A DNA stretch of 64,000 nucleotides from Apostichopus japonicus (lineage: Eukaryota > Echinodermata > Holothuroidea > Aspidochirotida > Stichopodidae). Position 1 is the stretch's first letter. Each line of letters starts with the position of its first letter. The stretch spans positions 41,670,611-41,734,610 of the forward strand of contig NC_092576.1 in assembly GCF_037975245.1 (NCBI RefSeq). Direction: 5' to 3'. This document shows positions 23,827 to 64,000 of the stretch, piece after piece. The notes under the pieces were generated by a model. It was not told the DNA's origin, did not search any database, and saw nothing but the letters and a program-made list of their open reading frames with translations. Made by a program: the position numbers and the translations under genes.

Positions 23827-25331
23827 ATGAGAAACATCCTTACCTTGCGTGCTTTTTGAAAACGAGTTATCAAATCCAGTATAAGACAATCCAGCCAGTT
23901 CCGTTGAAAGACTACCGGTATTATTCTATTGAAGAAGTCTTTGTCGATAGTAAAATAGAAATCATGGGCAGCAGAAACAACAAAGATGAGAATGAACATG
24001 ACACTACATGGCTTTCCTCTTATAAAGACCTGTTCAATACTGATGTCGTCAACTCGAACCGAATTGTAATAGAGGGCGCTCCAGGTTTTGGTAAAACCAC
24101 TTTGGCGTTAAAGATCGCTCACGACTGGTGTAGTTCTCAAGATTCATCGCCTTTGCAAAAGGAAGAAATTTTACTTCTATTGTCTTTGCGGAATGTTTTG
24201 GGATCAGTATCCATTTTTCAGGCAATAAAGACACAATTGTTGCCACCAGAATGTACTCTATCGGAAGAAGAGGTTAAGTCAACACTCTCCAAATGTCGTT
24301 GTTTAATCATTATTTTAGACAATTACGAAGCATATTTAGGTCGCGATGACAAATCTACTCAAGTCCATAAAATCTTAATCGGAAAGATGTTTGCCAATGC
24401 CAAAGTCATTTTATTGACTCAGCCGGATGTCCTTCCTTCTGATCTTGCACCTGACACTATGCTGTTGCGATTGGGTAGTTTTGATGCTAATGTGCGTCAA
24501 AGGTACCTCCAACAAATTGCTTCAAGGGAGGGAGCTGACACGGAAAAATACAAGAGACTCTCATCCCTACAGGACATTTTCAACCAGAACATCATACTAG
24601 CAGATATGTGTCAGGATCCCATGATCTGTGCGATGGTCGTCCATTTGACAAAGGACAATGAATTTGAAAGCACTAACACTATGTCATTGACAGGTTTGAT
24701 AAGGCATATAATTGATTGTTTGTACCGTCACGTGTCTAAAAGTTCTAAAAGTGAAAGAAAGAATCCAGAAGATCATACCAAATTAAATGAACTAGTGTTT
24801 AAGGAACTTTGTGAGGATAAAAAGGAACAGTTACTTTTTGAAAAAGAAACGTTGATTCAAACGACTGGAGAGTCATTGATCGATGAGTTGATAGAAGTTG
24901 GTATTCTAGTACAATCAGATAAGCCAGTAGACAATTCTAACGAGAAAGGTAAAACAGTTCTACGATTTTATCATCCCATATTTGCTGCGTGGTACGCATC
25001 GCTCTATCTTGCATACTGGCTTAGTGGTCGATGGAACAGGTGGGTCAGTTATTACATACAGATGGCAGACCCATTCCGTTTCGAATTGGTTTACCGCTTT
25101 GTATGTGGAATCAACCATGAATCTGCAGACAGGATTGTAACTTATTTGAAGAGCATCACTGGAGGGAGGCAGCTTGAAACGTTGTGCATTCTTGAAAGAA
25201 CTGAAAATCTGGATCAACTTTTCAACAACATTACCAGGGTCTGTCGTCCTCTGTATAAAATCCGAAATAGGGATGCCCAACTCGTGAGACAATCTAAAAT
25301 AAAGTTCCTTCAATTTGCATCAGATGCGGAG
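23827..25331 (+). CDS. NACHT ATPase exon of NLR-like gene 1
   Basis: This exon encodes a NACHT-type STAND ATPase, the nucleotide switch of NOD-like receptors. It enters in phase 1 after TTCCTTCCTCAG and leaves in phase 0 at GCGGAG/GTTTGT. Visible motifs: a YSIEEVFVDSKIEI lead-in typical of animal NACHT proteins; Walker A GAPGFGKTT; a hydrophobic Walker B strand LIIILDNYEAY; a sensor-like strand VILLTQPDVL in which the usual Arg is Gln; then helical and winged-helix parts (LADMCQDPMICAMVVHL, and an FYHPIFAAWYASLYLAYWL segment). No death-fold or signal peptide is visible. The second NACHT exon in this window (61863-63316) is a clear relative with identical intron phases. Known for the family: nucleotide-driven oligomerisation on sensing of danger. 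Ligand is unknown. Confidence 0.92.
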
Positions 25332-25425
25332 GTTTGTTACATACGTTAACATGTTTTGGTAATATATCAGTATGTCCTAATTAACTGTTAGCTTCCCGTT
25401 ACGAAAGAATTTATTCATTGTACAG

Positions 25426-25488: not shown

Positions 25489-25637
25489 GTATGATGTGGT
25501 AAGTTTATGAGATCCCATCCTTTACGCACACATGTCTTGTAAGTATGAAATATAAAGTAACTCCATTATATCCCACATACGTACAAATTAAGTTAAATAT
25601 TGCTAAAGATTTCTCTACACATTATATCCGTTTACAG

Positions 25638-25846: not shown

Positions 25847-25873
25847 GTAGGTATACACTCCCCAAGCACTCCC

Positions 25874-27324: not shown

Positions 27325-27560
27325 ACAATGGCTTGATCATTTTGTACTGTAAATAAGAGACAACTGTCAGACAGTCTAAACTGATATGTGTTATAACACC
27401 GTAACATAAGTTAGACCTGTCAGCAGGTGCTACTGTGTACTCAATGTGCAGGGCTCAATCAGTTTGTACTGTGAATCAGAGAAAACTGTCAATCAGTCTA
27501 ATCTGATATGTGTTATAACACCGTAACACATGTTATATCTGTCAGCAGATGCTAATGTGG
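27325..27560 (+). repeat. Tandem duplication, two ~115-bp copies
   Basis: The strings TTTGTACTGT, GTCTAA, CTGATATGTGTTATAACACC and GTCAGCAG occur in the same order in 27338-27430 and 27460-27550. Intronic to NACHT gene 1. No further copies seen. Confidence 0.7.
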
Positions 27561-29603: not shown

Positions 29604-29781
29604 ATCAACTCAAGTGGGTAAAGTCATCATCAGAAAATTCAAGATCAGCTCCTCAGAGATAGAAGCAGTCAGTGATGCTTTACCTGGTGATGTCATCGAC
29701 AGGAAATTGAGAAAAGAAGACCTGGACAATGACCGTAACAGCTACTATATATCGCGAGTTCCTGCTTGCAAGAGGATCTAA
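29604..29781 (+). CDS. NACHT gene 1, terminal leucine-rich exon
   Basis: Phase 2 entry after TTTAATTTACAG joins exactly to the exon ending at 25846. It encodes a further LRR-like strand-helix unit (KVIIRKFKISSSEIEAVSDAL) and a charged tail with a YY pair, ending in TAA at 29779-29781. With it the gene is closed: about 650 residues, far shorter than most NLR proteins. The 3.7-kb intron before it is mostly AT-rich and contains repeats. Confidence 0.75.
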
Positions 29782-34056: not shown

Positions 34057-34387
34057 CTTGAACATGCAGATGGTGCTCCACTAAAACATTCTCTAACCGT
34101 TTACATCGGTAGATACCTTCGTGGAGCACTGAGATGTTTGATATAAGTAATGTCCTGTTCTCTTCTATAGAAATAGTCTCTTCGAATGTGGTATCAACAC
34201 GAACATTACCAACGAACAATATCTTGTCCTGAAAGATCCAGTCGGCTTTCCAGTCTGTACACCCTTCCAGTGATAATGACTGAGACTGGATCACATGATG
34301 GATGAAAACATTCGTGCAAGTCACACATGGAAGGGAGAAAGTTAAAAATCCAACAACGAAAGGCAACAACGGGATGTGTTGAAACAT
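34057..34387 (-). pseudogene. Orphan signal-peptide/Ig first exon
   Basis: ATG 34387 opens a hydrophobic signal peptide (LLPFVVGFLTF) followed by a V-type Ig domain with the typical end HEGIYRC and a phase-1 donor CAAG/GTTAGT. It is a clear paralogue of the first exon of the pseudokinase receptor (53583-53916): shared are SLSLE/SVSLE, DWIFQD/DWMFED, TLLI and EGIYRC/EGVYRC. Here the first Ig cysteine is displaced by one residue (SLEGC rather than SLEC). No following Ig, transmembrane or kinase exon is visible on the minus strand below 34057. Either the start of a gene with undetected exons or a stranded duplicate; I favour a relic. Confidence 0.6.
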
Positions 34388-35524
34388 ATCTGTACCTAAC
34401 CCCTGTTACTGAGGGATAGAAGTGAGGGAACGTACTTACCTATAACTGCATCCTGTAAGAGAAATAAATTATGATATAGGCGTTGTTTACGTCATGATCT
34501 TGTTATCAAACGAATTCAAAACGGAAATTAAAATCTTTGCTTGGCTTGAATTCTGTTATGCTCTGTTGATCTTTCTGTTTCAGTTACGATCTATTTTTGT
34601 TAAGCGGTACTTACATTATGTTTATATAAATATCGCAACAAGGAAAATGATTAGGATTGTGACTTTATTAAGGTCCCTGTAGCCGTGGTGTATAAAGATA
34701 TAGATGAGAATGACAATAAGACTTCTATTGGATTATTTCATCTATTCAATCCGTGAAAACTACAAGATATATATATATATATATATAAATTATCTATTAA
34801 CGTACAAATATATCACAAAATAATAAATAAATCGCAAGAAGCACAAAACATACAAGTAGCACATAAAGACTATATAGAAAATGCAACGCAAACCTCAAAA
34901 ACGCAACTCAAATAGTTTCTACAAATTACACATTTAAAACTTCATAAACCGCAATAGTTAAAATGTACCTTTTTAGTATCCTTTACTCCTAACGCAAATC
35001 CCGTGACAATGAAAGGTCACAGAGTATTGGCATGGGTTGTACTGTCTGCCACACCCTGGCACAAGTAACATGTCTAATATGAAGTATATAGCAGAACTCC
35101 GATCACATAACTGACCCTACGCAGATCTAGAACGCCAGCGAGCTCCCTGATCTCTCCATGCCACATGAAGGAACGACCAAACAGAAGGCATGGCCTCACA
35201 CAATGAATACACACGAGACACACTCTCTTACAGTCCCTCTCCCCCGTCCCGAAGCAGCTATTTCATTCATGAACTAGATGCACAGCATCTGATATCAAAC
35301 AATACTATTATATAGAAAATTTATTACGGGCAAGTTTACAATTGTTTATTTAAGATATAGCATTCAAAGTTAAAACGAGAAGGTGTCACTATAGCTTCCT
35401 TGCTAACACCGAGACTTTGACTTCTTGTTTCGAAATTGTTGGATAAAAAGTGCTTTCATAAACAACGTCTTCATTATCATTTAACTTTTCTTACGGATGC
35501 ATTTATATATGACTTGTATGTACG

Positions 35525-46300: not shown

Positions 46301-49300
46301 GGATACAGCCCCTCCCTTTACTATGCTTTAGCAGTTACACATTCATTCATCATCAACTTACCGATGGATACTGCGGTACCTTTCGGACATAGGCCTGCCT
46401 AAAGGAAAAGAATAACCCTTAAACTGTGACAGAAATACAGTTACAAGAAGAATTTTGCTGAAATGGTTGATCTGTTATAAAACAACCAGATACACAAGGA
46501 TTATGTTGATTTTACAATAAGATTACTTTTACTGAAAGTAGAAAATCAACCGTGGTACCTTAAGACCATTATTTTAATGATATGTAAAATAATATTTTGT
46601 AAAATTAAGTGGGCCTGACGTTTCAATCCTAGCAGGATCGTCTTCAGCAACTGAATGGAATTCAGCAGTTTGCTAACGGTTTTCGTTTAATTTTGTAAAA
46701 TAGTATGAACACATTTAACTCAAAGATACCTGTTTCAAACGACGAGTGTTGAATTCTGAAAATATGAACAGAAAATGGATTCAGCTATTACAATTTAGTT
46801 AATATGTGAGATATAGGAATGTACATTGTACTGTACTGTTATGTAAACATATGGTTGTCAAGTTTATTTTTAAACCATGTTGGACTCTGCAAGGTAAACA
46901 ATATAGTCAGTTACGGTCACACCGCCACATTTCTGATGATAAAGGATTGAAGGAGGACAGTGCAAGTTTGACAACTTATGGACTTGAAAGGAGTTGCTGT
47001 TTAGGATTATTTTCAAAGCATTACTTTCCCACGAAAGTAATTCCATGAAAACATTGGTCGAACGCAGGCTCTGGCAGATATATTGACTTGTAAATTAGGT
47101 TTTATTCTGGTGTAAACATTTTACTATAGGAATCCGATTACGCAAAGTCTTTTGACAGAGCAAGACGTCGCATGACACATTTCGTAAATACCCTTTAGTC
47201 ATTAATGTTGCTGTAAGAGGCTGTCGTGCGTCAAACAAAAGTTCCCTGTACGTGTAGACCACATTGATTCTCATTAGGCCCCCTATATGTGCCCATGCAT
47301 GCGCTTGGGTAAAATATTGAACTGATTGTTGCACGTGTAAAGAAAGGATCTCCATAGTTGCAACATATGACGTCAGAGGTATTAAAGATACTAGTTCATT
47401 GCTTAACATTTTCCATTGTATTTGTATCAGAAGAGAAAAACATTACTTTTTATTTTTGTTTCTAAAATTTCTGGTAGTCCTAAATGCGTTAATATAACCT
47501 CCAAATTATCGCAATGATATGCGATACGTTCTGCAAATGACCAAATTACCGAAATATTGCCTCCTGTTTACGAGAACCTGAGAAAAATAGGAATAAAAGA
47601 GATTAAATATTGGGCACATGCTTAGTTGAGTATGGGATATAATGAACTTGACAGATCAATATACGGCATACTTATCATTGGCATTTAAACCAATGATGTT
47701 GCTCTCTTGCAGTTCGCACAGTACTATTTGTGAAGGAAATTGGAATGGGAAATAGGGAAGACTATTAAAGTGAGAACAACAAATATAAATATTTGAAATA
47801 TGCCTGGTAGAATTATTAACAAACCCCAAAATGACATATTATCTTACATTCAAAATTATATTCTTATTGTGACGTTTCTATATAAAAGGCACACGACTAA
47901 CTGTCAAGACAAATACATATGCATACATTTAATCAATATTTATGTATAAAATAAATGTATATATAAACATTTACTTACTATAACTTTTCCAGATAAGGAG
48001 AGCAGCAAAAATTGCAACAACTGCAACTATTACACTTGTCGTGGAAACCCCGATAATTAGAGAATGATTCAACTCTGTCGAGTTTTCAGAAGATGAGACT
48101 TCTTCATTGTCTTTCCATACTCGAGTCATTGGTTCTAAATAGAACAAAAGAGTTCAAAAGAAACATGAATTTAAGCAAGGAATTGACCCGTCCATAAGAT
48201 AAAGATACATGTGGGATTCTACAGTTCGTAGAAATCCTTTTTACTGATGTTGCATAGCTTAACCAATGTCCTTGTCATGATCTCTGCCAGTGTTACAAAG
48301 TTTGGATTGTTGTTGCTTTTTATTCGAAGTGTTCATGTAGTGTTATCAGATAAATGAACTTGTCGTCAAACATATTCTTGACAATAAAAAAGGCTATAGT
48401 CTCATTAAATTGTTTCTTTCCATAAAGCAACGTAATTGCAGTATGATTACAAGCATCTCTTACCTATACATGTGAATACCAGGTGGTACTGCTAGGCCTG
48501 GGTCACAGTGTTGTTTCGAAAAAGGTAAACAAATACATTCCAGAATCGTAAGGGAAGTGAATCTTAAAAATTGCGTTACTTTGTGAGGCGAGACGAGCCA
48601 TCACTTTCAGTTCTCTTGAAATGAAAGGAAACTGCAAATTTGACGTTAAACTAGCAAATATATTTATTTTAAAATGAATATACCACCACCTTCTTTTATA
48701 ATCTCAAAAGTTGCATTGAGACGTTGATCCCGAAATCCGTTGACGACACACGTGACATTACCAACTTCTCTTTCATATCCGAATATCAATTTTGTCTTAA
48801 ATGTGTATAAATTATCTCCAATGTTGATCCGTTTTGATAAAATCTTTGCTTTGACGAGATTAGTACTCTGATTATCTACGAGCCAGGTCATGTTGAGGTC
48901 AGGTCGCGTCCCGTTGACCTGACATACTGCCAACACAGTTGCGCTTTCATTTGTGATATTCAAGTCAATTGTCAAACCGGCAACAGTAACATCTGGTGAC
49001 AAGAGATTATTAATACCTGATCATTCATATAGAGCACAAAGTAAAACCAAAATAAGGATACTAACCCTCACACTTGTAAGGTGAATTTGTGCAAAGGTTT
49101 CATACTCGTACTCATAGCAAAGTCTAATTCGGATCCTGTCCAGCTTTTCGCCGGTCGATATATTCCACTATTACGAGAGAGGTGTTTTGTATTTGTGTAG
49201 AAACCAGACAGTCATTTATTTTTCTTAAATCAGTTTGAGAAGGACACGTCACATCTCTAACCTATTTTAATTATTGAATTAATATAATTTACATTATTAT

Positions 49301-52300
49301 TAACCCCTTACCCATGCCGACTTTTTACCATTGTTAAAGTTGACGCCAATAAAATAAATACTGGTATAGTCCAAGTATAACAGACCGTCGACGAGTGGAA
49401 CTTGATCCACTTCTATCCTACTTCTATCCCATTCCTATCCTACTTCTATCCTATTTCTATCCTACTTCTATCCTACTTATATTCTATCCTACTTCTATCC
49501 TACTTCTATACTTGTAATCCATTTCCATACCATTTATACTCGTACTACAAATCTATTAAAATAAATGTAACCCAAGAACGATTTAACGAATCTAACAGTT
49601 ATAATGATGGACATTGTAAATATGACTGGGCCGACCTTAATAATGTAGTGATAAATTAAAATTATAGTTTAATTTTTTCACCTTTATTATTGACAGATTA
49701 TTGTTTAATTCTTCTCACCACAGTTCATTACCGTGACCTTGCTTGGGCAAGTTCACAACTTTGTCATGGTGTAATTGGAATTAAATCGTGAGAGTTGAGA
49801 CCCATGCCGAATCATTTATACACACTTAGCCATTATCAAGAACACATTTGGCATCACATTTATGCGATCGTCATCAATGCAATTGTCATCAATCATCAAT
49901 TGTGACTTTCAGGAGATAAATGGAAAGCATTCAGCATTTCCCTTCTGGAAAATACTAAATGATGTTTATTGTGAGTTTGAGTATTGACCCTAAACTTACA
50001 GTTTGTCCGATATTCTCTGACAATCGTCTGGTTCGGTTGTTTCTCTCCCCAAATACTATAACAACTAATGTTACCATGTGGTTTATCTGGATCAGGTCGG
50101 ATGATTATGGATGAATTGGAATCATATGTCAAGTTGTCAGCTTTGAGAAAGACATCCTCACTTATGGTTGAACTATTGGACTTTATCGATGGATTGTCAC
50201 CATTGATCAGCCACGTGAGTCTAGCTTGTGGTCTTGCGCCGCTTGCGAAGCACTGCGCGTCTATGACATCCCCAATTTCTATGTAGATAACATCTTGTGA
50301 GAAATCACCATCGATGGCCAAACCAAGCACTGGAACAACTGCAAGCAGGAAAAATTTTAAAGCAAAAAAGCTCATGAAACACATTCTGAAAAATCATTTA
50401 TTATCAATATTCCATGAGAATGTAAACACTGCATGATGAGTGTGTTTTTTTTCTTCGAGAAAGCTTTCTTTTACACCCCCAAAGCCATGTCTGCTGTGCC
50501 TCAGCTTTCAACACCTTCCGAAACAGAAAGTAAAATAGGTCTGACAATGCAACCTTTGCATCAGATGGAATTTGGTATTATCAATGTTCATTTTAGAAGA
50601 AAAACAAACCGTGAAAATCCCTTAAGAAAAAAACTTGACGTTTGTCAGTAATCTGAGTGACTTTTGAAGGTGAGAAGTGATGGACATGGGTGTCTAGCTG
50701 CTTTACTCTGCTGGAATCAAATTGTTTCTGTCAGGCACACAGATGCAGGACGGTATCATCGTACACATTAGTAGTCTTTGGACCCTTTCTTTAAACTAAT
50801 GTACTTCTCAAGGTTTTCCTCTGAACAACGAACTGTGCATACTAGGCGTTACTAGGCGGGTGTGGGCGGGCGGTGCGGGAGCCAGGTGCCTTGGCAACAG
50901 TAAGGTCTATTCACAAGCACCAAAAACAAATAAGCACTCAACTAACGATGTTGATATCGGCATGTGACGTTCATTCACTAGTAAACCATGGGATTCCCAT
51001 ATACTCTTAAAGGTCTTATAAACATCAAAGCCATATTGCATCTGCTGACGACAGTACAGTTTACAGCCATTTGAAGGTTGCTCGCGCCTTCTTAGTAAAC
51101 CCCAAAACAATGACTCACAAAAGGGTGCCGACTTTATATATAGTATCGAGGTTTCGACGAAATCCTGATCTTATTGTCAAAATATCTTTCATTTTTAAAT
51201 ATAGAACACTTTATGCACTATATTACCTCGAATTTTGTGAAAAAAAGATATACTAGTTGAAACGCATTACAACTCTCGGGTATTTAACCGCTGCTCACAA
51301 ATTGTTTTTACATTTTGATAAAAAAAAATCCTAGCGTGTTCAATTTTTTTTTACAATCTTACGTTAGGCCCTTAACTAAATACATAGGGCAAACGACCCA
51401 ACCGCGGTCTATATCTTTCCTTATGTTTACTTTGATTAGACCGAAATGTTGGGGAGGTGCCTTTAAATAAATGTTTGAGCTCCATTTGGTTTCTATGGTA
51501 CTCCCAGTTGGAAGGCCAAAGACACTTTATGGAGGGGCACCAATAGTTAAAGGAGGGGCACAATACTTATGTGATATTACTTGTAAAGCTTTTGGGTGGG
51601 GTGGATAACACAATTTCGAACGTAGAGGGGCATGTTCCCTTGGTCCAGTCTGGCTACCGGACTGTCGGGGAGCTGTTTATACTCAAATGGAGTCATATAG
51701 CCACATTAGACAAATGCTCAGTGAATGGTAAAGACTGATATACACTGCAAATCGACTTGATCATGTTGAGGTAAAACATTTTATCGAACATTTTTGAGGC
51801 AATTAAGTCTACAAAAGCTGAAGCTCAGTAAAAGATATTCGAAAATTACGGCATTTTTAAATTGAAAGGTACCCCACATTAATGAGACAATAATATGCCA
51901 TTATTGCTGTGTATAAGTTAACAGTGCAGGTGCTTGGAAATAGAACTTCCAAAAATGTATTTCTCTGCATTCTTTCTGATTGTTTTCAATGGACGCATCA
52001 GATAGTCCAAGTATACATACTTACATACTTGTAAAATAAAAGTCAACATGTAAGAAGAAATATATTGCCTCTCTCAAAATATCCAACTTCAACCCACCCC
52101 CCCCCCCCCTCTCCCCAAATGAAATGGTCATTGGCTTTCAATGAAAGGATAGGCCTACATACTTATGTTGCTTTAATACAACGATGACTTCATATTTATA
52201 CTACTTTTTAAGCAATTTCTTACAATCTGGAAAGTAAGAAGGGCATTTCATTTCCTAACTGTAATACTGTACGTAAACTCTACGTAGGTTAAAACTGTTG

Positions 52301-53916
52301 GGTGACCTGTTGATCTTCAATTTGCTGCAAGTGACAAGCAAGAAGTGGCTTCTATGTATACATTTTTGTGTCACCAGAGCCCGAAGCAAGGTTAGGCTTG
52401 GTCGTACGCGGATGTTCTACTTATTGCTAATTTCAATTGTTAAACCGGGGCACTCCTTGAAGCGGCCATGTTTCATCTCACCAGTTCCCATTGTAAAGTT
52501 ACATTGTTTTTGGTTTCATTATACTTGATATGTCTGTTAAAATATACCGGTAAACTATTGTTCTAAAAACACTGTTTGCTTTGAAAGGTCAATTATGTTA
52601 TTAAATAATGGATGAATGTGCTCTTGTGTTCGAAAAGTGCTTTACTTTCGATATAACAATATTACTATTGTTATTTCTTTGCCGTCATATTGTTTCAGTT
52701 CAATGGTATTTCATTCAACTTGGTTAAGTGTTTCAAAACTCGATAAATATTACGATCAACGGTGGTACTGTCAGGTGAACTTAAAGGGTATGATGGATTT
52801 TAAACATTGTATGCTGTTTGGGAGATCTGTAAAAATTGAACTCATTCAAACGTAGTCATGGTTTAGATTTGACTTTCTTTAAACAACATTTTGCGTCCTT
52901 TTCTATGGTTTTTCTCAACCTCACTGATTCCACGATGCCATAACGAAATACATAACTAGCTTATCTTTTCAAATCTTACTTCAAATGGTGGCATTAAAGT
53001 CGAAAAAGTTACAATTTTCAACTTTGTTTTCCTTGAAGATATTTTCCGTTGGGATCCAAATAAACCTCGCCCATCATATGAATATTTAAAAGCTTCGAAC
53101 GTCGATGGCCAATACGTTATACAACACCATGCTTGATTTGGGTAGATTGTTTATGGCAGTTGTACCAGGGAGCTGTTAGAGTCCAGCTCGCTGGTTGTAC
53201 CAAGTTACCAACTCGACGTTTTGAATCAGACTTTAGCAACGGCTCATAACTAAGCCTGCATCTTTGATTGGTTGAATTCAAACTAGTGGGTTGGGGAACT
53301 GTGTGCGATGAATATTAAATGTGTAATTTGTCGGAGGATACTTTTCTCATTATCTGCAAATGTCCTTAATTACTCGCCAATTAACGCTTTTGGAAAGAAA
53401 AAAAACTTGGATAATATCCTAGTTTGCTGTTGTGTGATTGATATATGTAAAAAACTCGATGGACTTGTCAAAAAAAGTGGAAAACGGCGACAAAACGCAA
53501 AATGCTGCTTTAAGTGAATGTGATGTTAAGTATATCATTCTTTCAACACTGTTAGGAGAGACATGTTGTAGATGTTACTAACCTTCAACTTCCAGTTGAT
53601 GTACCACCGAAACGTTTCCCGACTGTTCGCACCTGTAGACTCCTTCGTGGATGACTGATACATTTCTTATCAATAGTGTGTTCGCTACTATTTCGATCGT
53701 TTCTTTGAATTTTCCGTTCAGTGGAACATTATGATATACCACCATGTTATCTTCAAACATCCAGTCGTTATTAACATTCGAGCCGTAAGAACATTCCAGC
53801 GATACTGAATGTCCCTTAATCACAGTATGATTGAATGTTTTCATGCTCGTCACGCATGAAACGGAGACACATACTATTCCCAAACGAACTATCATCCATG
53901 AGATTAAGCCCCACAT
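40225..53916 (-). CDS. Ig-domain receptor tyrosine pseudokinase (whole gene)
   Basis: Fifteen exons, all with good splice sites and matching phases, join into one closed frame of 2253 bases (750 residues plus stop). Order: signal peptide and V-type Ig (1-111), C2-type Ig (112-224), C2-type Ig (225-327), transmembrane helix (about 353-376), juxtamembrane with NYLSV, tyrosine-kinase-like domain (about 444-710) and tail. Fold landmarks survive (EGM…LIHS, SDVW, WEIL, CW…RP) but activity residues do not: only one glycine of the glycine loop, VAVK Lys is Thr478, the helix C Glu is probably Arg498, HRD is HPG (579-581), DFG is DFC (599-601). I infer a catalytically dead receptor working as a scaffold or ligand-gated partner of an active kinase. 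Tail Tyr730 lies in YEKM, a YxxM motif of the PI3-kinase SH2-binding type. It is divergent and head to head with the Ig-NACHT gene. Confidence 0.85.
41372..41453 (-). CDS. Pseudokinase receptor exon 14: C-lobe end
   Basis: 82 bases, phase 2 to 0, after CTCTATAG. LFDCWTTDCSSRPKMSKI matches the CW…RP signature that closes tyrosine kinase domains. Confidence 0.85.
41680..41770 (-). CDS. Pseudokinase receptor exon 13
   Basis: 91 bases, phase 1 to 2, after TTTGTATAG. Encodes a Thr-rich loop (GNTTSTTTQK) and NWPRKYEEIR, the helix G region. Confidence 0.75.
42189..42300 (-). CDS. Pseudokinase receptor exon 12: APE/SDVW region
   Basis: 112 bases, phase 0 to 1, after TTTTCATCAG. NAPPEVV stands in the APE place and SDVWYTALVIWEIL keeps the structural Asp-Val-Trp of helix F. 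Confidence 0.88.
42403..42703. mobile_element. MITE with long imperfect inverted ends, intronic
   Basis: Left arm (CACACAGAGA, then GTTATGTAAATCTT, CGGTAGCATGT and TTACAGTAAGAAC) recurs inverted in the right arm up to 42703, leaving a short loop near 42545. Total about 300 bases. In the intron between exons 11 and 12 of the pseudokinase gene. Confidence 0.8.
42816..42935 (-). CDS. Pseudokinase receptor exon 11: dead catalytic loop
   Basis: 120 bases, phase 0 to 0. The catalytic loop HRDLAARN is HPGLSTKK, and DFG is DFC within KLYDFCLKED. Proton acceptor Asp and both metal-coordination contexts are altered. Confidence 0.85.
43135..43307 (-). CDS. Pseudokinase receptor exon 10: helices D and E
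   Basis: Phase 1 to 0, after CTTTACAG. Starts with a Cys/Leu-rich hinge (GQICLLQTHLNCTTLDKHL) and ends VIEILEGMELIHSYG, the helix leading to the catalytic loop. Confidence 0.82.
43779..43889 (-). CDS. Pseudokinase receptor exon 9: helix C region
   Basis: Phase 1 to 1, after TTTTTCAG. Pattern WDDFVKRILDV then CIVPVEGIC matches helix C and the strand after it in receptor tyrosine kinases; the salt-bridge Glu position appears to be Arg. Confidence 0.82.
44376..44546 (-). CDS. Pseudokinase receptor exon 8: degenerate N-lobe
   Basis: Phase 1 to 1. Holds the glycine-loop position (IKIGVIYTRWMG, one usual glycine kept) and the beta-3 strand CVVVTTL, where the ATP-binding Lys of VAVK is Thr. Confidence 0.82.
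45991..46066 (-). CDS. Pseudokinase receptor exon 7: juxtamembrane
   Basis: 76 bases, phase 0 to 1, after GTTTACAG. Acidic stretch with DDNYLSVDEGG, a possible phosphotyrosine site before the kinase-like domain. Confidence 0.75.
46362..46394 (-). CDS. Pseudokinase receptor microexon 6
   Basis: 33 bases, phase 0 to 0, between AGGCAG and GTAAGT, encoding AYVRKVPQYPS. A competing acceptor four bases upstream would shift the frame. Confidence 0.65.
46611..46655 (-). repeat. Second copy of hammerhead-like dispersed repeat
   Basis: Minus strand: CTGAAGA core intact, then GATCC…GGATT hairpin, GAAACGTC. Stem I pairing is lost. Intronic to the pseudokinase gene, between exons 5 and 6. Same family as 817-856. 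Confidence 0.5.
46730..46755 (-). CDS. Pseudokinase receptor microexon 5
   Basis: 26 bases between ATTTTCAG and GTATCT. It changes phase from 1 to 0, which the two flanking exon sets require, and encodes a basic juxtamembrane stretch (KFNTRRLKQ). Confidence 0.65.
47979..48134 (-). CDS. Pseudokinase receptor exon 4: transmembrane
   Basis: After TATTTAG, 156 bases in phase 1 encode a Ser/Glu-rich stalk with N-glycosylation sites, a hydrophobic helix of about 24 residues (IIGVSTTSVIVAVVAIFAAL) and the stop-transfer WKSY. Donor ATA/GTAAGT. Confidence 0.88.
48684..48992 (-). CDS. Pseudokinase receptor exon 3: Ig domain 3
   Basis: Phase 1 to 1. Cys in LAVCQVNG, Trp in MTWLVD and Cys in VTCVVNG mark a C2-type Ig domain, with repeated NxT/S sites. 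Three in-phase GGTG donors overlap at the end, so the last residues vary by one or two glycines. Confidence 0.85.
49410..49512. repeat. Short minisatellite, CTTCTATCCTA unit
   Basis: About nine tandem copies of an 11-base unit with small variants, in the intron between Ig exons 2 and 3 of the pseudokinase gene. Confidence 0.85.
50000..50338 (-). CDS. Pseudokinase receptor exon 2: Ig domain 2
   Basis: Acceptor TTTTTCCTGCTTGCAG; 339 bases, phase 1 to 1. Ig with Cys in AQCFASG, Trp in LTWLING and Cys in ISCYSIWG, plus several N-glycosylation sites. A Met upstream (50384) would make a fake leader out of intron sequence; the strong acceptor and the exon length, identical to that of 57471-57809, argue against it. 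Confidence 0.85.
53583..53916 (-). CDS. Pseudokinase receptor exon 1: signal peptide + Ig V
   Basis: ATG 53916, hydrophobic leader (MIVRLGIVCVSVSC), then an Ig domain with Cys in SLEC, Trp in DWMFED and the HEGVYRC end. Donor GAAG/GTTAGT, phase 1. Its paralogue is 34057-34387. Confidence 0.85.
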
Positions 53917-54871
53917 GTTTGTATCATATATCTGTTAGTTTAGCGTCGAAAGTTTGCAAACCAGATTTAGAAGTAGAAAATCTATAACTGGATGTACGGA
54001 TAACTTGAATGTTAATGTATGGATTGTTGACGAAAGGATATAATAGAACCAACTTATCAACAGAAAGTGAAAGACCTGGTTTTACCTTTGTGAACCATTA
54101 CCTCGCAGAGCTATTGATTGACTTTAAACCTCTTTTTTTCTAATCCCTGTGCATATTCTGCGGGATTTCACTATTTAGTTATCTTTCCTCCAACAATGAC
54201 ATAACCCAAGGAAATTGAATATCTTTGGTCATAAGAATTCGACTTAAACAACGGTAAAGCAGAGCTAGTGTGCACATTGTTGCTTAACATATTTGGTTTA
54301 ATAAATAACATTTTGATGGTATACACGAAATTAATGATTGCATGAAATTATTAAATATAAACTATCAAATATGCAAATTAAAAAGTGATTGAACTGCCCT
54401 CTAAATATGTTTAGAAAGATGTATATTAAAAGATATGACAAACTCAAAAAATTTACTAGTTGGATTCACCGCGTTGAGGTCACAAGAATTAAAAGAGAAA
54501 AATATCGCTGAATCCGTTTTATTGTATGATTTGAAGTTACTGCCTTTCTTTTCTTAATAAATCCACTAGCTTCCTGAAGATAATGATGGTGTATGCTTAA
54601 CTGAGTGATCAAGGATAAAAAATAACTGACCTGAGATCAATGATCAACACATTTAAGGTACCTGTACTTAAACAGAGGTGACCGGTCTTACTTTCTATGA
54701 ACAATGAGTTATTCGATGATCGCTTTATGTTAAGCTTCCTTTCAATTGTGGAGAAAGCAAATGTGAAATTGCTTTGAATCGTATAGTAAAAATAAGGGGT
54801 GTAAATCGAGATTGACCGAGTAAAGAAAATATTATGCTAATATTCTCCTATTTTTTGCATTTCAGACTATA
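53917..54871. promoter_or_regulatory. Shared divergent promoter region (inferred)
   Basis: The two receptor genes start outward from this 955-base interval: ATG 53916 on the minus strand and ATG 54872 on the plus strand. The plus-strand start is preceded by a TTTTTTGCATTTCAG acceptor-like string, so an upstream non-coding exon is likely. No TATA box or known motif was assigned with confidence. Confidence 0.45.
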
Positions 54872-54923
54872 ATGAAGTTGACGAACATTGTAGCGGTCCT
54901 GACACTGTTTGCGGTGATCCTTG
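54872..54923 (+). CDS. Ig-NACHT exon 1: signal peptide
   Basis: ATG 54872, MKLTNIVAVLTLFAVILG, phase-1 donor CTTG/GTTAGT. A lysine then a 14-residue hydrophobic core, a textbook secretory leader. Confidence 0.8.
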
Positions 54924-57900
54924 GTTAGTAATTTGATGTAGTTGTTCTTTATTCATGAACGACGTTAAGTAGTCAATGTTTATAAGATAGTTTCACTTAA
55001 TGTTACTTAATTAAGACTAATGTAATACCATACATCGTGTTGAATAGTAAACGTCATTGTCATGTCAGACAAAACAACAAATTACATTTTCAAACCAAAA
55101 TTATCAAACGAAAACTTGAACTTGGTGGATTAATATAATCATGTCATTCTGACATGTTATTTCTGATAATATCACTTATGTTTTAAAGTTTAACATAAAA
55201 TAAAACTGTTGGCAAACTGCTTATTCAATAGAGAGACTGTGTAGAAGAATGTTTTAAAGTCGTAATATTATCAACAGTAATAAGTCATAGTGTTAAAATT
55301 TCTCCCATTCACTACATTTTTGTTCACACTCACAATATGATTGTATTAACTCCGGTATTACTTAATAAATCGTCTATATTTTGAGTCAACGAAATCTGAG
55401 ATATAATTTATGGTGTTTATCGTTTAAGATAATGCTAAGTACAAGTACTGTAGAATTATAAGACAAATCGAAAGTATAATAATTATGAAGTAACAAGTAG
55501 TTACCATAACAATAAAGTAAGTCAACTAATCGTGGAACAATCCAGTCGTAATCGTAAATCTTTTTTTTTTTTCAATGTTGAAACCAGTAATCTTATTGTT
55601 TGTTTCACAGTCTCTGCGGAAACAGATAACGGATGCGAAGACCCACAGATTGTAGAAATTGGAAAATCAGCAATTCTGAATTGCACCTTTAGTAAAGGCT
55701 TCGTTGGAGTTTTCTGGTATAATTCGACAAATACAGACGACGATGCCCCGATTTTAGTTTTCCAAGACTCTGAGAAAAGTGGCAAAGGATACTCATCCGG
55801 GGAGTTTGACATTGACAATAATGGCTCATTGATTGTTAATAATGTATCGAGTACGCATGATGGTATTTTCACAGTTTCTCAGATTATCAGCTTGAAAGGA
55901 CCAATAGTGGAAATGCATTCTATAACTGTCATAACATATGGTAAGTACTGTAGGACCGTACGGTGAGGGTTGTAAAAATATTAAAACAAGAATTCGCAGA
56001 CTATTTATGGAATTAATGTGGACAACATGAACAACACAATTGAAAGAGATTATGTATAAAACAAATGAAAATGTCAATTTTACTGACATAAACCTTATTA
56101 TTCATGATAATTAATCATTGTGATTAGCTTTTGTTCCCATGAAGTTGCTGCATTTCACCGACACAGCTATGTAATAGTATATATAATCATGCGTAGCGTC
56201 ACCAGCAAATTAACCGTTTACTTCATTCTTCTGCAATAAGTATTGATGTATTCGATATTGTTTCACTTTCAAGTTTATACAAGTAAGTACGATTTCCTTT
56301 TATAGTCTGTATTTTTCTTCTCTTATGCAGTAAAGCCCTTACAACCGTATCCGTTTATTCCAGAGTGCCAAGGATATCAGCATTGTTTGCTAAGATCTAG
56401 TGAGATTTCTCCTTTGAGTTGTTACGTTAACAGTTCAAGACCAAAAGTTTCACTTGGCTGGACGGAACATTTTACCGAGGGTCGTATAAATATCACAACT
56501 GGACAAAAGGCTGACGAAAAAAGTGTTACGTTTTCTTCAATTGCTACCATATGGCACCCTCCATATCAAATATCCTATCTCTCATTGCTGACGTGCTCAG
56601 CATCTGACCCACTAATGCTACTACAAGAAGATCGATCTCTTGTTTTAATTCAAAACGAAGCTGCTGACTTCAGACACATTGAAACATCAAAGCATTATGT
56701 TGAGGTTGGAACAGTCGCAAACCTTTCTTGCTCTGGGTCTAGTTCCGGAGCAACCCTTTGGACGGTATCTCGCAATTTCGCTGAACATCAAGACATTTTG
56801 GCGTATGGAATATTCAATGTCGGTTCAGTTAACTTTACAAAAATGTATCAACATTCTGTAAGAATGCAGAGTAATGGAGCGTTGTCACTGCAAAACGTTA
56901 AGCCACGAGATGATGGATTGTACGTTTGCGTACATAGGAGTAGCAGAGACCATGATGCCCGTTTATATGATGTCAACTCTTATGGTATGAAAGAAAAGCC
57001 TTTAGTGTTTACATTTGTATTTTCCATTTATTCGGTAGTATCTGTCTGAGTAATGCGTATTGTCGATATAAATTTATAACCAACAATTCCAAAACCAGCA
57101 AAATACAAACAAAGTCAACAACAGTTATTGATGATTTGTATCCCATCAATGTCTCCATATCAAACACCTCAGCATCACATATGAGATACTATGACAATGC
57201 TTTAATATGAAACAACAGTTTACCTACAGCTTGGATCAGCGGTGTAGCCTATATCTCAAAGGCGCCCCCTTTTTGAATAATGCCTCCTTACGCCCATCTA
57301 TGAATTGATACAATTTTACTCGATATGCCTTAAATAGCATTCGCCTTAAATTGATTAGAGGTTTATTGGTTTCCATGTGAATCGTCCAGGCCCGTTTCCT
57401 TAAACATAGGAATATGTCGGTATGAATTCCTCCGTAATGTAACAATAGCTATATATTAATTTTATTTCAGTGAAGCCAAATCCACCTTATGTTGTTGTAG
57501 ATGGTTGTAATCAACCACTGTGTAAACTATATGTTAGCTACAGTGACCAGTTGACATGTAGACTGTCAGGAATCCGTCCCATCACACACCTTCAGTGGGT
57601 ATCACCTTACGAATCGCATCAACGCATGCTTCACAATCAGTCGCTGGAAGTTATTCCCAAAGGAGATACTTCAGACGTATCTGCTACGGTTAGATTTCAA
57701 ATAACCCAATCAGTAGAGGGAAACATGATGAAAATACGATGTCGAACGTCCGGTCCGAATTCTGACTTCTGGCGCATGGAAAAGGTTGTAGATCTAAAAT
57801 TTGCCAAAGGTAACTATTTAAACGATATACCAAGCTCTGGTTGTAAAATCATCCTTTGTTTCCTTGAGTTTACGACTGATTTGTGATAAACATGATATAT

Positions 57901-60900
57901 TTACACATTATGAAAACTTAACGTGCGAGTGGAAGATAATCAAGCTCTTTATCCAAAATATAAATTGATATAATTTAAGATCCTTCTTTTCCAGTTATTT
58001 TTTATGATCGTATTTTCTCTGACTACTCTTTCTCTCTTTAACTAATATAAATCTATATTTGTATATTTCCTTTTCCCCAGCAAACCCATCAATTTCAACC
58101 TATCCAACTGTATATGGTTGTGATCAGCAGTTTTGTATCTTATATGTTAAATACAAAGATCAATTGACATGCACACTTTCCGGAATCCGTCCACTACCTA
58201 ACCTGGAATGGCTAGCAAACGACCCAGTCTACCAGAGCATGTTTCTCAATCAGTCTTTAGAGGTCACTTCCAAAGGAGATACTACAGAAGTCTCAGTGAC
58301 GGTTCGGTTTTCCATAGAGCCAGAGGCTACGCACGACAGGATTACACTAACATGTCGACCTGTTGGACCTATATCAGAAGTGTGGAATATGGAAACGATC
58401 GTAGATCTCAGATTTCCCAGAGTGGATGCAATCAAAGGAGAAGATAAGTCTCCCAGTGAAAGCCAGCTCATCTTTGTGATTGTCTTTTCTTCCATCGTTG
58501 CAGTGCTTTTAGTTATTGTTGCCGCTATTATCTGTGTAAAACGTAAAAGTGAGTACTTCAGTTCCGAACTATAAATACGTGTACATAAATTGCCTAATGT
58601 AATGAAAGTAAACAAAGTAAATTAACAAAGGAAAGTAAAATAGTGTAGTATTTTAACACCCCTGTTGTTATATTCGTAAAATGAAATCCATAGTAAGAGA
58701 CTGTTTGGTCTTAATGTATTTGTAGTAGCAACCACTAATATGTAATTTTGATTTCTGTCTACGTCCCACATAAACAATCAAACTCTCTTTGGTTTGGTTA
58801 TATTCCACATCTACCATTATCTAAGCAAATTACTCACGGGACACATCGTGGGATGATCCATGCTTTATAATGGAGTGGGAGAGTAGTTGCCCTTAGGACG
58901 TTGAAACGGAGACTCGTGTAGGGGGTATGGATAGCCTTCTTACCACCCAAACAACCACTACACGAAATGTGCATTCTTACAAATATATAGGTCCTAAATG
59001 AGAGATGCAATTAGATCTAAACGTTATGTTCTGTCGAGAGCTGTATTCATTTTTCGTGCATTGAAAATAATGAGTGCACAGCCCCACCCCCCCCCCCCCC
59101 AGCCCCAAACACACACCACAAAATCAATCTGCACACTAAGTAAACTCTTATGAGGTGATTGCAACCACACGAAATGAAACCGCTGGAATGAAGACTATTC
59201 ATTCCATAAAGTTCAACAGATCCATATACCTCAGCTCGCACTCATTCTGTACCTACAAGGGTCAGGACATTGTTGTCCCCCTCCCAACCAGAATACATTC
59301 AGAGTGGCTCGGTCTCTGCCTCCCATTGGTATACAAAATATTACAAAACACTTCTTGCGCACAGTACACAAATATATAACTTGTTCGTGGAGTACAAAAG
59401 TTGAAAACTATTCACTATTGCTCCAAAACTTGCAAAATAAATCACTATTTTGCATCTTAGCACCCACAATTTCATGACACATCCTCAGCTGGACGGCATT
59501 ACACATTAACCCCAGTACAAGCATGGTAGTTACCATACAGTTCTTCAAAAGTAATATCGTTTTTCCCATTTGATACCACATATTATCAAAGTATAATCAA
59601 GGTAATGCTTTTTCCTTCTTACTTAGCTTCGAATTGTAAAAAGAAGGGTAAAGATAAACCAACTCACATCAGCGAAGGAGAAGAGGTAAAAGGAATATGA
59701 TCTCATAATCAAATTTGACATTATATATCATATGTGGGTCGTCAACTTCCAGGTATTGCTTCCAGACTAACTCTTATCACATGTTTTGTAATTCTAAATG
59801 CAGTTTTTGTTGATAAGACGGTGGTGTATTTGATTCTCAATATAAGGAATGTTGACGATACATTAAATTTCTCTGACTGGCATTGTAAATGGATTGTTAG
59901 ACATATTTGGAAGTTTGGGAAGAGTAAACAGAGATAGAAGCAATCTACCAGTAAACAGGCTCTGACTTCTGTGTTCGAATATCCAAGCCAGTGGTTTTCA
60001 AGAAATACATGAAATATTTACGTCGGTTCACTTTGTTTGTAAATATGTGTCTATTTGCGAATACTTAGTTTAATTTCCCTTTGGCTTGTTTCTCACAGCA
60101 AATGATGACATGCATTTATATAGTTAAATGTCAACAATAGAGAAACATTTTCAAAAATATATTGGACAAACGACTCTTTCGTCCATACACTTTTGGGATC
60201 CGGTGATATCACATATCACAAGATTTATATCGACAATGCACTATAATTGCGCATTCACTTATTTTAGAGTGCCGTGATGCTCCCAATAGTAGAAAGCGGT
60301 GTATCGAAGAGCAGCACTGGTAAGTATACTTCTGTAAATTATAGAAACAGAATTGTCTTAGCTTTGCTGTCTCTCAAGCTTGTCTTATCCACTTATTCTC
60401 ATTTTTAAATCTTTGGTGTTTGGTTTTAAGAAAATATGTTTATTCTCATTATTCTTTTGCGCTATGTGTATTACGTATTATTTACAAACCCCAAGAGTAG
60501 CAACAGGCTGTATTCTGATTTTTGATATTGTAATACAAACAAAATGTCAAGATCGCAGGCCAATCGATACGACTTACGCAAAATAATATGTATGGCACGT
60601 TCTTAACTGCTCTGGTAAAATTATAAAAAGAATATTTTCGTTCATTTTTTCAAGTTTTAACGGATTCATGATCGATATTGACAATTATTGTGTCACTCTA
60701 TCTGTCTCTATCTTGTAATTGTACCTTGTTAAGATCTTATGCATTCGCCTTATTACATGCTAAGTGTCACAACACAATATAATAACATTGATTAATATGA
60801 TTTCATTGTACACAGACAGGAAAAAAATGAATGCAGAGGATAGTCCTGACGGTGTGACGGTAATAACAACGCTAATTATCTGGTTAATTCCATTGCCGTA

Positions 60901-61133
60901 ATGAAAAGTATTGTTTATTAGAACATTCCACAATTTGTTCCCCATTTTCACATTCTTTTCCGTAATACAGTCCTTTAGCGATACTGATTGATTGATCAAA
61001 ACTATTGGAGCGATGTAGATCAATGCTTACAATACAGAGCAGTCATCTTCAGTGTAAACATATTACGCGACATTGTATCTTATATTACAACAGGCTGTTG
61101 TTATAATCTCGACATGCATACCAATCTCAATAG

Positions 61134-61175
<42 letters not shown>

Positions 61176-64000
61176 ATCTACTCTGCAAAGAGAGAGATGG
61201 GGGGGGGGGTGGAGAGAGGGGAGAGAGGTGAAGAGAGAGATAAAGACAGTGGGGAAAGAGATTGTTTGTAACACTCACCATGTTCTTTCCTGTATTCATT
61301 GAATATTGAATGTTGTCACGGTCCTTTAGTTAACTAGATTTATATATGTGATGTAATATGTTATCGCTGTTTTTGTTGTTGATGTTACTCTAGGAAGTTG
61401 CTATTACCGTCGATTCCAGCAGTACACCGAATAACAGCTCTGGTAAGAAACATTCAGGAAATCATAATAACAAAATTGCTTTCAGTTCGAACATTGTTTC
61501 TCTCTCCAAATATTGCAATTTGCGTTCTTCTGTTGTTACTTGTATTATAGTTTGGGGAAAAATAAGTTGGTTGCAATAAGGTAGTTTGATGTTTATGATA
61601 ATCAGAAGTTCAGTAATTCCTTCACTTATCTGCCATTTTTGTAGGGTTGTCATAACGGTGTGGTAAAAGTTTTTATTCCATTTAAATTATCAGAGTCATC
61701 ACAAACTGAACTATTGATTGTCTCTTTGTCAACCATAAACGTTTAATTTAACTCAGAGAAAGCTGGTGGATAGATTTTTGGAAAGAGTTTTGTTTCGTAA
61801 TAACGATTTATTATGAGAAATTTACCAACAACATTTTATGAGTGTGCATTATTTCTTTGAAGGTAAACTAGACCAGGTTATCGAGGATTTAAGGGAGACT
61901 GCTACTGACAAAGCAGATGATGTTAATAACGTTTATGTGGATGTTGAAATAGAGTTACTGAGGCAAACCGATGAAGGTAATAAAACTGCGTCCTCTCCGT
62001 CAGACAACGCCCGCTTAACCTCATATCGTGATATTTTTGACCCTGAGGTTGTCAAATCGAAACGCATTTTCCTTATAGCAAATCCTGGTTTTGGTAAATC
62101 GATATTATTTCTCCAAGCCACTCTTGACTGGTTAAACAAGACGCCACCTCTAAATAATGTCCAGATTTTTGCCCTACTAAAACGTAGTGATGTGACCGGA
62201 TGCGGTTCAATCTGTGAAGCAATAAGAAAACAGATGAAAGGTTCCTTTACCAGTGAAGATATCAATGATATTTTAAGCTCTCCTAATGTGAAGTCAGTGA
62301 TAGTTTTGGAAGATTTTGATCAATATGATGATAAAAAAATTAGATCTGAAGTTTTAGAAATTATAAATGGTCGCATGTTTTCCGAAGTCAGACTGATCAT
62401 TTCGTCGCGATCACTTTGTATACCAACTACTGCTGAGTATGCAAATATTGTTAGACTTCGTCTAAACGGATTTAGCGAAGAAACACAACACCGATACCTT
62501 GACAAAATCTGTCCAGGTGACAAAAGTACCGCAACAAAACTTAAAGACACAGTCAAAAAGACTATGTTATTGGACAAATTTTGTCGTATTCCACTTCTTT
62601 TTGTCAAGTACATCGACATTGCCAATGATCCGAGCAACAAGACAGTCACTGAATTTCATTCAATTACCGACCTCTTCACGTTTGTGTTAACGTGCTTCTA
62701 CAACCACTATTGGAACAAGTTCCCTGGAGGTGGAAAGAAAGAAAGCAAAACCAAGTTTTCTGAACTACACAGATTGTGTTTTGAATCCCTTTATGACACA
62801 AGTATTAGGCAAGCTTGGGAAAAGAATAATTTTCTCTCTCGAGTCGACGGAGATTGTTACAAAGAACTAATTTCTGTTGGTATTCTACGTGAAAAGGAGA
62901 GTGCCAAGACAGTACATGATCTCAATGTGTGCCAAAAGGAGATCAAATTCTGTCACCACGGCATAGTGCAATGGTATGCTTCAAAATATATATCTGCTTA
63001 TGCAGAAGACAAAACTAATTTTTCGTTGGGACCAGTAATGAAGAAAATTGATCCAGCAAAGTCTCAACTCTTCATTCGATTTTGCTGCGGACTGAGCACA
63101 ATTGCTACAGTAAAGATGTTGAAGTATTTCCAGTCTGAGGGTAAAGTGTTTCAGATATTCCGTATTCTTGAACAGGATAAGGATTTTGAGAAGTTTATCA
63201 AAGAAGCTCAAACATTTTGTGGCCCTTTGGCTATCGTGCTAAAATCAGAAGAGAAAAGATCAGCGGATTTTCAACAGTCTTTATTACTACAGCTTCTGGA
63301 TATAGTTTCAAATAGTGTAAGAAGTAATTTTTTTTTTTGAACAGTTAGTACCTCCCAATCATTATGTAAACAAATTCATGCCTGTTCTTCTTCAAATAAA
63401 AATGTTATATTGGCAACATAATTTTCGATACTCCAATTGAACTTTCATTAATCCATGAAGTTTGTAATATCGTTATGTAAACAATTTACATAGTTTCGAC
63501 TATCTAGAAATAAATGAAGGAATACACAAACAATATCGTGTTCATAACATTGTTTACAATTCTTGGTAGACACGTATGTTTAGAACATTTTGACAATATT
63601 TAGCTCTATTTTGTAAATATTTTAAGTTTACTGGTGCCAATACAGCCCCGATGTCTTAAAAACGACCAGTCATTGCAGTCTAGTTATGTAATGGTGCAAA
63701 ATTGCCGGAAATATAAAAAAAACGTCGATTGTATTACTAGCAGTTATAACGTCGTGACTCTTGGACTACAAAAGTTTATGTTTTTATAACAAACTAATTT
63801 TATGTCTTTCATTATTTTGTCGCCAGAAAATTGATCTGCGGCTGTGGCTTCGGCTTGAACACAACTTCAGTGCAATCGAAGAGAATACCTTCAAAATCAT
63901 ACTTAGATCTAATCTTCGTTTGAATATCATTAATAATCTCGAGAAACTAGAGGTGAAAGGAGATAAATCTGAGTTAACTACAGACAACTGTTCAGGCATC
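54872..64000 (+). CDS. Ig-transmembrane-NACHT receptor (whole gene, 3' cut)
   Basis: At least nine coding exons join in phase into 1135 residues before running out of the window. Order: signal peptide (1-17), V-type Ig (18-127), C2-type and V-type Ig on one exon (128-345), C2-type Ig (346-458), C2-type Ig (459 to about 570), transmembrane helix (about 588-610) with KRK stop-transfer, short lysine-rich juxtamembrane, NACHT ATPase (651-1135; Walker A NPGFGKS at 724-730), then the start of a leucine-rich region. A type I surface receptor whose cytosolic part is an NLR-type switch is, to my knowledge, not a described family. Inference: ligand binding or clustering of the Ig part drives NACHT oligomerisation at the membrane. 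Every junction keeps frame, and nothing else lies between, which argues against a chance merger; a transcript is still needed. Confidence 0.75.
55611..55940 (+). CDS. Ig-NACHT exon 2: V-type Ig domain
   Basis: After TGTTTCACAG, 330 bases in phase 1 to 1. Cys in ILNCTF, Trp in VFWYNS and the late HDGIFTV strand; the second canonical Cys is replaced (Val), so the intradomain disulphide is absent. Confidence 0.85.
56331..56984 (+). CDS. Ig-NACHT exon 3: two Ig domains on one exon
   Basis: 654 bases, phase 1 to 1. First half is C2-like (LSCYVNS, LGWTEH, LLTCSAS), second half V-like (LSCSGSSSG, LWTVS, DDGLYVCVH). Other Ig domains here sit one per exon, so an intron was lost or never gained. Confidence 0.87.
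57471..57809 (+). CDS. Ig-NACHT exon 4: C2-type Ig domain
   Basis: 339 bases, phase 1 to 1, after TTTATTTCAG. Cys in LTCRLSG, Trp in LQWVS, Cys in IRCRTSG, with an extra Cys pair (GCNQPLC). Sister of exon 5. Confidence 0.88.
58081..58548 (+). CDS. Ig-NACHT exon 5: C2-type Ig and transmembrane helix
   Basis: 468 bases, phase 1 to 1, after TTTTCCCCAG. Ig part closely resembles exon 4 (GCDQQFC, LTCTLSGIRP, LEWLAN, LTCRPVGP). Then a short stalk, a strongly hydrophobic helix (LIFVIVFSSIVAVLLVIVAA) and VKRK. Confidence 0.88.
58549..59626 (+). other. Intron of Ig-NACHT gene, no coding seen
   Basis: AT-rich with a poly-C run at 59088-59100. The frames here have no domain pattern. Confidence 0.5.
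59627..59685 (+). CDS. Ig-NACHT exon 6: juxtamembrane
   Basis: 59 bases, phase 1 to 0, between TTACTTAG and GAG/GTAAAA. Basic then acidic (CKKKGKDKPTHISEGEE), as expected just inside the membrane. Confidence 0.7.
60268..60319 (+). CDS. Ig-NACHT alternative exon 7a
   Basis: 52 bases after ATTTTAG, ending CTG/GTAAGT, phase 0 to 1 (SAVMLPIVESGVSKSST). Same phases as 7b (61394-61442). Using both would break the frame, so they can only be alternatives. Confidence 0.4.
61135..61168. repeat. (TA)n microsatellite
   Basis: Short TA run followed by a GA-rich, G-run tract (61186-61260), in the intron between the two alternative exons. Confidence 0.95.
61394..61442 (+). CDS. Ig-NACHT alternative exon 7b
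   Basis: 49 bases after GTTACTCTAG, ending CTG/GTAAGA, phase 0 to 1 (EVAITVDSSSTPNNSS). Joins exon 6 (phase 0) to the NACHT exon (phase 1). Confidence 0.5.
61863..63316 (+). CDS. Ig-NACHT exon 8: NACHT ATPase domain
   Basis: 1454 bases, phase 1 to 0, after TTTCTTTGAAG; donor AATAGT/GTAAGA. NACHT hallmarks in order: lead-in VYVDVEIELL, Walker A ANPGFGKSILF, Walker B strand VIVLEDFDQYDD, sensor strand LIISSRS with the Arg kept, and the winged-helix-like FCHHGIVQWYASKYISAY. Same length and intron phases as 23827-25331 and alike at every motif. The region before Walker A holds no death-fold. Confidence 0.92.
63827..64000 (+). CDS. Ig-NACHT exon 9, partial, leucine-rich start
   Basis: Phase 0 after TTGTCGCCAG; open to the window edge. 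LRLWLRLEHNFSAIEE and NNLEKLEVKGDKSEL resemble the leucine-rich exon of NACHT gene 1. Confidence 0.7.

Follow-up and report, generated by a model that had tools for sequence, protein, structure and literature searches.

Gene organization of the locus

The window analyzed here is a stretch of 64,000 nucleotides of the Apostichopus japonicus genome (C16:41670611-41734610), and positions given without a contig refer to it. Two plus-strand genes with a NACHT exon were located in the window, one starting at position 54872 (the 54872 gene) and one whose NACHT exon begins at 23827 (Table 1). Searches were run on the whole genome, which comprised 671,581,487 bases in 35 contigs.

Table 1. Exons of the 54872 gene and NACHT exon of the second NACHT gene in the window
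Feature	Position	Strand	Description
Exon 1	54872..54923	+	Start codon and signal peptide MKLTNIVAVLTLFAVIL, ends in phase 1; signal peptide judged by eye
Exon 2	55611..55940	+	V-set Ig domain 1; Pfam V-set 7.3e-13
Exon 3	56331..56984	+	Two Ig domains (2 and 3), the latter matching Pfam ig at 7.5e-9
Exon 4	57471..57809	+	Ig domain 4, duplicate of domain 5
Exon 5	58081..58548	+	Ig domain 5 (C2-set_2 6e-8), stalk, transmembrane helix (~588-611), KRK
Exon 6	59627..59685	+	Basic cytoplasmic tail exon, phase 1 to 0
Exon 7	60268..60319	+	Short tail exon with LPIVESG, phase 0 to 1
Exon 8	60816..60859	+	Short tail exon, phase 1 to 0; based on open frame and splice sites only
Exon 9	61394..61442	+	Short tail exon, phase 0 to 1; based on open frame and splice sites only
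Exon 10	61863..63316	+	NACHT exon: NBD, HD1 and winged-helix region; Walker A and B altered; phase-1 acceptor
Exon 11	63827..64000	+	Leucine-containing region, truncated by the window end
Second NACHT exon	23827..25346	+	Pfam NACHT 9.6e-11; phase-1 acceptor

Eleven exons of the 54872 gene lie within the window. All ten introns between them have GT-AG ends, the end phases are 1,1,1,1,1,0,1,0,1,0 exon by exon, and 1225 codons are read without a stop. The preliminary description had joined nine exons without a frame break; the open frame was upheld, but exons 7 and 8 had been missed. The joins that it proposed (58548/59627, 59685/61394 and 61442/61863) are real in-frame splice-site pairs but skip these two exons, and the frame also stays open when both are added to the chain (phase 0 to 1 to 0). 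The frame of exon 11 reaches a TGA 43 bases past the window end, unless a GT just upstream of the TGA is a donor.

The five large exons were compared with dinucleotide shuffles (n=200 each); the open length was reached in 0/200 shuffles for four of the five, and in 1/200 for exon 4. The transmembrane (TM) helix of exon 5 gave a hydropathy of 3.27, and the twelve most hydrophobic scoring windows all fell within residues 585-615. Exon chain, Pfam and hydropathy agree on a signal peptide, five Ig domains, one TM helix and a NACHT module in one frame, as had been described initially. An Rfam scan of 54000-64000 returned no family at the gathering score. On its sequence, the 54872 gene is judged to be a real gene; the expression and topology of this copy are predicted.

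Genome-wide pairing of NACHT exons with upstream modules

Three NACHT searches were merged and the second NACHT of the window was added, which gave 224 NACHT loci, and their surroundings were compared with 133 Ig-Ig rows, 95 Ig rows and 98 death-like rows. All pairing counts are lower bounds, because the search scores only the best candidates. Ig exons were present upstream, on the same strand and within 8 kb, at no fewer than 62 of the 224 loci (at least 51 with an Ig-Ig exon within that distance), and at none in the other three orientations. When the limit was widened to 14 kb, at least 66 loci were paired, and the other orientations gave one locus for Ig-Ig and one and two for Ig. At every locus with both exon types under the 14 kb limit (54/54), the Ig-Ig exon lay beyond the Ig exon.

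A death-fold-like exon was found upstream at 53 or more of the 224 NACHT loci and downstream on the same strand at one. This exon is weakly identified, with Pfam Death at 3.3e-4 in one of seven members, DED at 0.011 at best in two of seven, and a best PDB Death match of E 0.38. No locus had both an Ig and a death-like exon (0/224), and 109 had neither by these queries, although a module may still exist at those loci. No NACHT was listed within 14 kb downstream of 17 of the 70 best-matching Ig-Ig exons, or of 74 of all 133. The 224-locus count supersedes an earlier one of 166 NACHT loci that included V rows (66/123). Seven C7 loci had been counted there as Ig loci; since six of the seven rest on weak, stop-bearing hits, the 51 Ig-Ig loci are the safer count.

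The Ig-TM-NACHT family looks large in the A. japonicus genome; no genome-wide gene count for it was found in the literature searched, from which subscription papers were mostly absent. The published Ig-TM-NACHT proteins, as far as their reports could be consulted, were studied singly (PMC8699970, PMC13133943). If the family is truly large, membrane-held NLRs would rank among the main branches of immunity in sea cucumbers, and the family could be used to find out whether extracellular signals are able to drive a NACHT switch.

Paralog anatomy

The TM and tail exons were read at three loci chosen for their upstream Ig hits (L034, L035 and L036), and the TM exon alone was read at L037 and L038. 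V, Ig-Ig, Ig, TM and NACHT exons are present at each of the first three. At L034 and L035 the tail includes a basic exon (phase 1 to 0) and, after it, a short one (phase 0 to 1); each of these two tail exons shows a 6-base, in-frame length difference between the two loci; L036 has a candidate for the basic tail exon. Exon 6 of the 54872 gene agrees in position, phase and basic character with the basic exon of L034 and L035 and with the L036 candidate, and the LPIVESG exon resembles by eye the IPMLE, IPMME and VPMIES exons of L034, L035 and L002.

Both of the nearest Ig paralogs have upstream V exons with 60-62% identity to exon 2, and exon 3 is related to the L034 Ig-Ig exon, being among the 133 rows of the genome search with that exon. 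Exons 4 and 5 are 47-50% identical and correspond to a single exon at L034, L035 and L036; because of the identity between domains 4 and 5, the extra Ig exon is regarded as a duplicate. The 54872 gene is an unusual copy in its additional Ig exon, its longer tail and its altered motifs.

The nearest Ig relatives are located at C16:42.09 Mb (L037) and 42.18 Mb (L038). By Ig sequence the nearest is L038 (46-49%). Its Ig exons are accompanied by a TM exon, and a same-strand NACHT exon with 43% identity to that of the 54872 gene follows about 7 kb downstream. The L038 NACHT looks damaged, with about six residues missing before the P-loop and no clear phase-1 acceptor, and four other NACHTs give slightly better scores with it than that of the 54872 gene does, so that shared descent of both halves is unproved. 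The minus strand at C16:42065738-42065986, roughly 24 kb away from the Ig exons of L037, holds a remnant of a NACHT that shares 77% identity with the L038 NACHT and contains 3 stops. Between L034 and L035, synonymous divergence was 0.12-0.26 in the Ig exons and 0.51 in the NACHT exon, with dN/dS of 0.24-0.54; the lower silent divergence in the Ig half is a hint, from one pair, that copies may have recombined.

NACHT module and proposed leucine-rich tail

Exon 10 matched Pfam NACHT at 1.3e-5 with 25.5 bits, just below the cut-off of 26.7, and aligns with paralog NACHTs that clear this cut-off. NLRC4 is a cytosolic protein with an N-terminal CARD and C-terminal LRRs. A seven-row profile of the NACHT-exon family matched NLRC4 (PDB 8fvu) from the NBD to the winged-helix region with an E value of 1.4e-16, and the fold of the family is for this reason considered NLR-like.

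Canonical Walker A reads GxxGxGK[ST] and canonical Walker B reads hhhDGxDE. The corresponding segments of the 54872 gene are ANPGFGKS, in which the first Gly is missing, and LEDFDQ, neither of which conforms. Among the 27 aligned rows besides the 54872 gene and the 23827 NACHT, DGxDE was present in 26, the exception being L003 (DDYEE). All 19 death-type rows carried GDPGYGK together with DGxDE, and six of the seven Ig-type rows carried GEPG or GDPG together with DGxDE, the seventh being L003, with GDAG. The NACHT at 23827 also has an altered Walker B (LDNYEA), and TQ replaces its sensor arginine.

An intact Walker A and sensor arginine had been attributed to the 54872 gene. The arginine after strand 4 (SSRS) is indeed retained, but Walker A is incomplete, and since both Walker A and Walker B (EDFDQ) are altered, an intact switch is doubtful. 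Judged by these motifs, ATP hydrolysis by this NACHT is doubtful as well, and the alterations suggest that it may behave as a nucleotide-locked module or a scaffold rather than as a fully cycling ATPase. Most likely, it serves as a scaffold or weak switch in a single-pass immune or phagocytic receptor.

The proposed continuation of the protein into a leucine-rich region was not confirmed as an LRR tail, as Pfam gave no match on the terminal exon (63827 onwards) and no repeat run was seen. In the 8 kb downstream of the 54872 gene (L033), LRR-like patterns occurred in 11 plus-strand versus 3 minus-strand frames; after the other NACHT gene (25300-33000) they occurred in 11 plus-strand versus 14 minus-strand frames. 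In the pattern scan downstream of either gene, no frame read as a run of repeats.

Comparison with published proteins

The combination of Ig, TM and NACHT has already been published for sea cucumbers, and the 54872 gene is a divergent copy of this kind. According to the accessible portion of its report, AjNLRC4 of Apostichopus japonicus is an Ig-TM-NACHT receptor on coelomocyte membranes, the Ig part of which binds microbes and the NACHT part of which binds actin, with a domain map of TM 483-503, NACHT 600-757 and a second 'TM' at 776-795 (PMC8699970). A membrane-tethered NACHT, the central proposal of the preliminary description, is supported by the paralogs and by this protein, but it is not a new combination. 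By the portion of the description available, AjNLRC4 shares with the 54872 gene an Ig ectodomain, a TM helix and a cytosolic NACHT, and is said to lack LRRs; it differs in having two Ig matches and two TM calls, whereas the 54872 gene has five Ig domains and one strong TM helix, a longer tail and altered Walker motifs (PMC8699970). The two are taken to be different genes.

The gene model for L034 spans 7 exons in an open frame and, if a 17-residue signal peptide is assumed, has its TM helix at about 467-489 and Walker A at 600, close to the published AjNLRC4 map as given in the accessible text (PMC8699970), which indicates the same kind of gene. A further helix of L034, less strongly hydrophobic, follows the NBD at 768-786 (CQVPLFFVMF, hydropathy 1.29). 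The published second TM of AjNLRC4 is doubted because it falls near this helix, and it is read here as a probable helix of the NACHT module. The comparison suggests that the published second TM, and perhaps the topology claims that depend on calls of this sort, need rechecking.

A second Ig-TM-NACHT protein, AjNLR-new (PIK48001.1, 1197 aa), resembles the 54872 gene in having Ig, TM and NACHT in one chain of similar length, as far as the accessible description goes (PMC13133943). In that text its authors place two TM helices in the chain, with NACHT outside and Ig inside, the opposite of the orientation predicted for the 54872 gene (PMC13133943). The L034 helix perhaps bears also on this inverted topology. 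In another holothurian, Chiridota heheva, NLRs with a V-set domain are mentioned among the 6 of 53 NLRs 'with other domains' in the part of the report available, and thus, as in the 54872 gene, an NLR is joined to an Ig V-set domain (PMC8913654). Given the split of about 429 million years between Chiridota heheva and A. japonicus stated in the same text, the joining of Ig and NLR may be old in holothurians (PMC8913654).

Interpretation of the 54872 gene

The 54872 gene is very probably one gene for a single-pass type I Ig-TM-NACHT receptor, a divergent holothurian member of the AjNLRC4 kind. This reading is preferred because the phase-coherent open chain exceeds what shuffles produce and the same exon order recurs at many loci, because L038 has Ig, TM and NACHT in order and the tail exons of L034 and L035 keep the frame, and because the L034 model matches the AjNLRC4 domain map. 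Points counted against it included the sub-cut-off NACHT match, the long branch, the death-type nearest NACHT loci, the polyA-type signals between the TM and NACHT exons (AATAAA at 59436 and ATTAAA at 59862) and the damaged NACHTs near L037 and L038. The AATAAA signal would fit a division into two neighbouring genes, the first for an Ig membrane receptor that terminates beyond the TM exon and the second for a cytosolic NACHT protein, as would the 1.1 kb intron after the TM exon, the short tail with a stop that results from read-through past 58548, and the Ig-Ig exons elsewhere (17 of the 70 best) that have no listed NACHT nearby. Such a division is nevertheless highly improbable in view of the consistent exon orientation and order at many loci, the in-frame length differences of the tail exons between L034 and L035, and the published AjNLRC4 protein, which has both halves according to the accessible part of its description (PMC8699970). 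Decay of the copy, with loss of function, would account for the long NACHT branch, the altered Walker A and B and the damaged NACHTs around L037 and L038; it is quite unlikely for a gene that keeps 1225 codons without stop or frameshift and ten coherent splice junctions.

As a single receptor, the chain would run from a signal peptide through five extracellular Ig domains, one TM helix and a short basic tail to a cytosolic NACHT module. The Ig ectodomain would bind microbial surfaces or other receptors, ligand binding would cluster the receptor chains, and the membrane-held NACHT module would recruit cytoskeletal or signalling partners, leading to uptake. The expression, topology, ligand and partners of the product are predictions.

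Origin of the NACHT half

The NACHT exons at 61863 and 23827 were found to have the same phase-1 acceptor, as noted in the preliminary description, where exon shuffling was suggested from it. In 21 paralog rows, a phase-1 AG ranked first as acceptor of the NACHT exon in 13, second in 7 and neither in 1. Shuffling of exons at a phase-1 NACHT start would agree with N-terminal modules that exclude one another, although the 54872 NACHT itself may stem from either the Ig or the death clade. Exchange of N-terminal modules at the phase-1 NACHT boundary would be the simplest account, and the common exon boundary makes such exchange testable.

The 54872 NACHT matched loci with a death-fold-like exon at 35-36%, versus 28-34% for Ig loci, and the 20 nearest loci fetched by NACHT had a death-fold-like exon upstream and no Ig hit. 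NACHT trees were built from 29 rows and then from 19 of these after ten rows were dropped; L006 and L029 were omitted as having no motif-bearing frame, and L034 as the same locus as L005. The 54872 gene was placed on the death side with support of 79/90, on a long branch of about 2.3 changes per site, and one clade of its NACHT with the Ig-type NACHTs was not rejected (AU p 0.185). The best matches and the tree placement would both be explained by a separate swap, in which an Ig-TM module was joined to a death-fold-type NLR NACHT exon apart from the AjNLRC4-like clade, and the phase-1 acceptor common to both kinds would allow it. A swap of this sort is, however, rather unlikely, as the single clade stands by the AU test, long branches make the placement unsure, and L038, the nearest Ig paralog, is itself followed by the 43%-identical NACHT; if the two NACHTs are sisters, the swap would predate the L038 split. 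At somewhat less than even confidence, holothurian NLRs may come in two formats, a phase-1 NACHT exon joined either to a death-fold-like cytosolic module or to an Ig-TM ectodomain, with at least about 50 germline membrane NLRs per animal, Ig and NACHT halves that partly recombine between copies, and some members, the 54872 gene among them, that have lost a canonical ATPase.

Other features of the window and contig

Upstream of the 23827 NACHT exon, neither an Ig or death-like exon nor any other N-terminal module was recognised. An open frame at 25503-25850 on the plus strand, following this exon, has a leucine-rich end resembling that of the 54872 gene. Short Ig-like exons, some with weak Pfam matches only, occur on the minus strand at 34052-34405, 48664-50393 and 53578-53934, and apparently belong to other Ig receptor genes adjoining the 54872 gene. 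Many V-set exon matches, some about 1 kb apart on the plus strand, were located at C16:5.19-6.06 Mb, where no NACHT was listed; they perhaps form a separate multi-V gene cluster. A long minus-strand frame at 3932-5425 of the window has, by eye, the look of a C2H2 zinc-finger protein.
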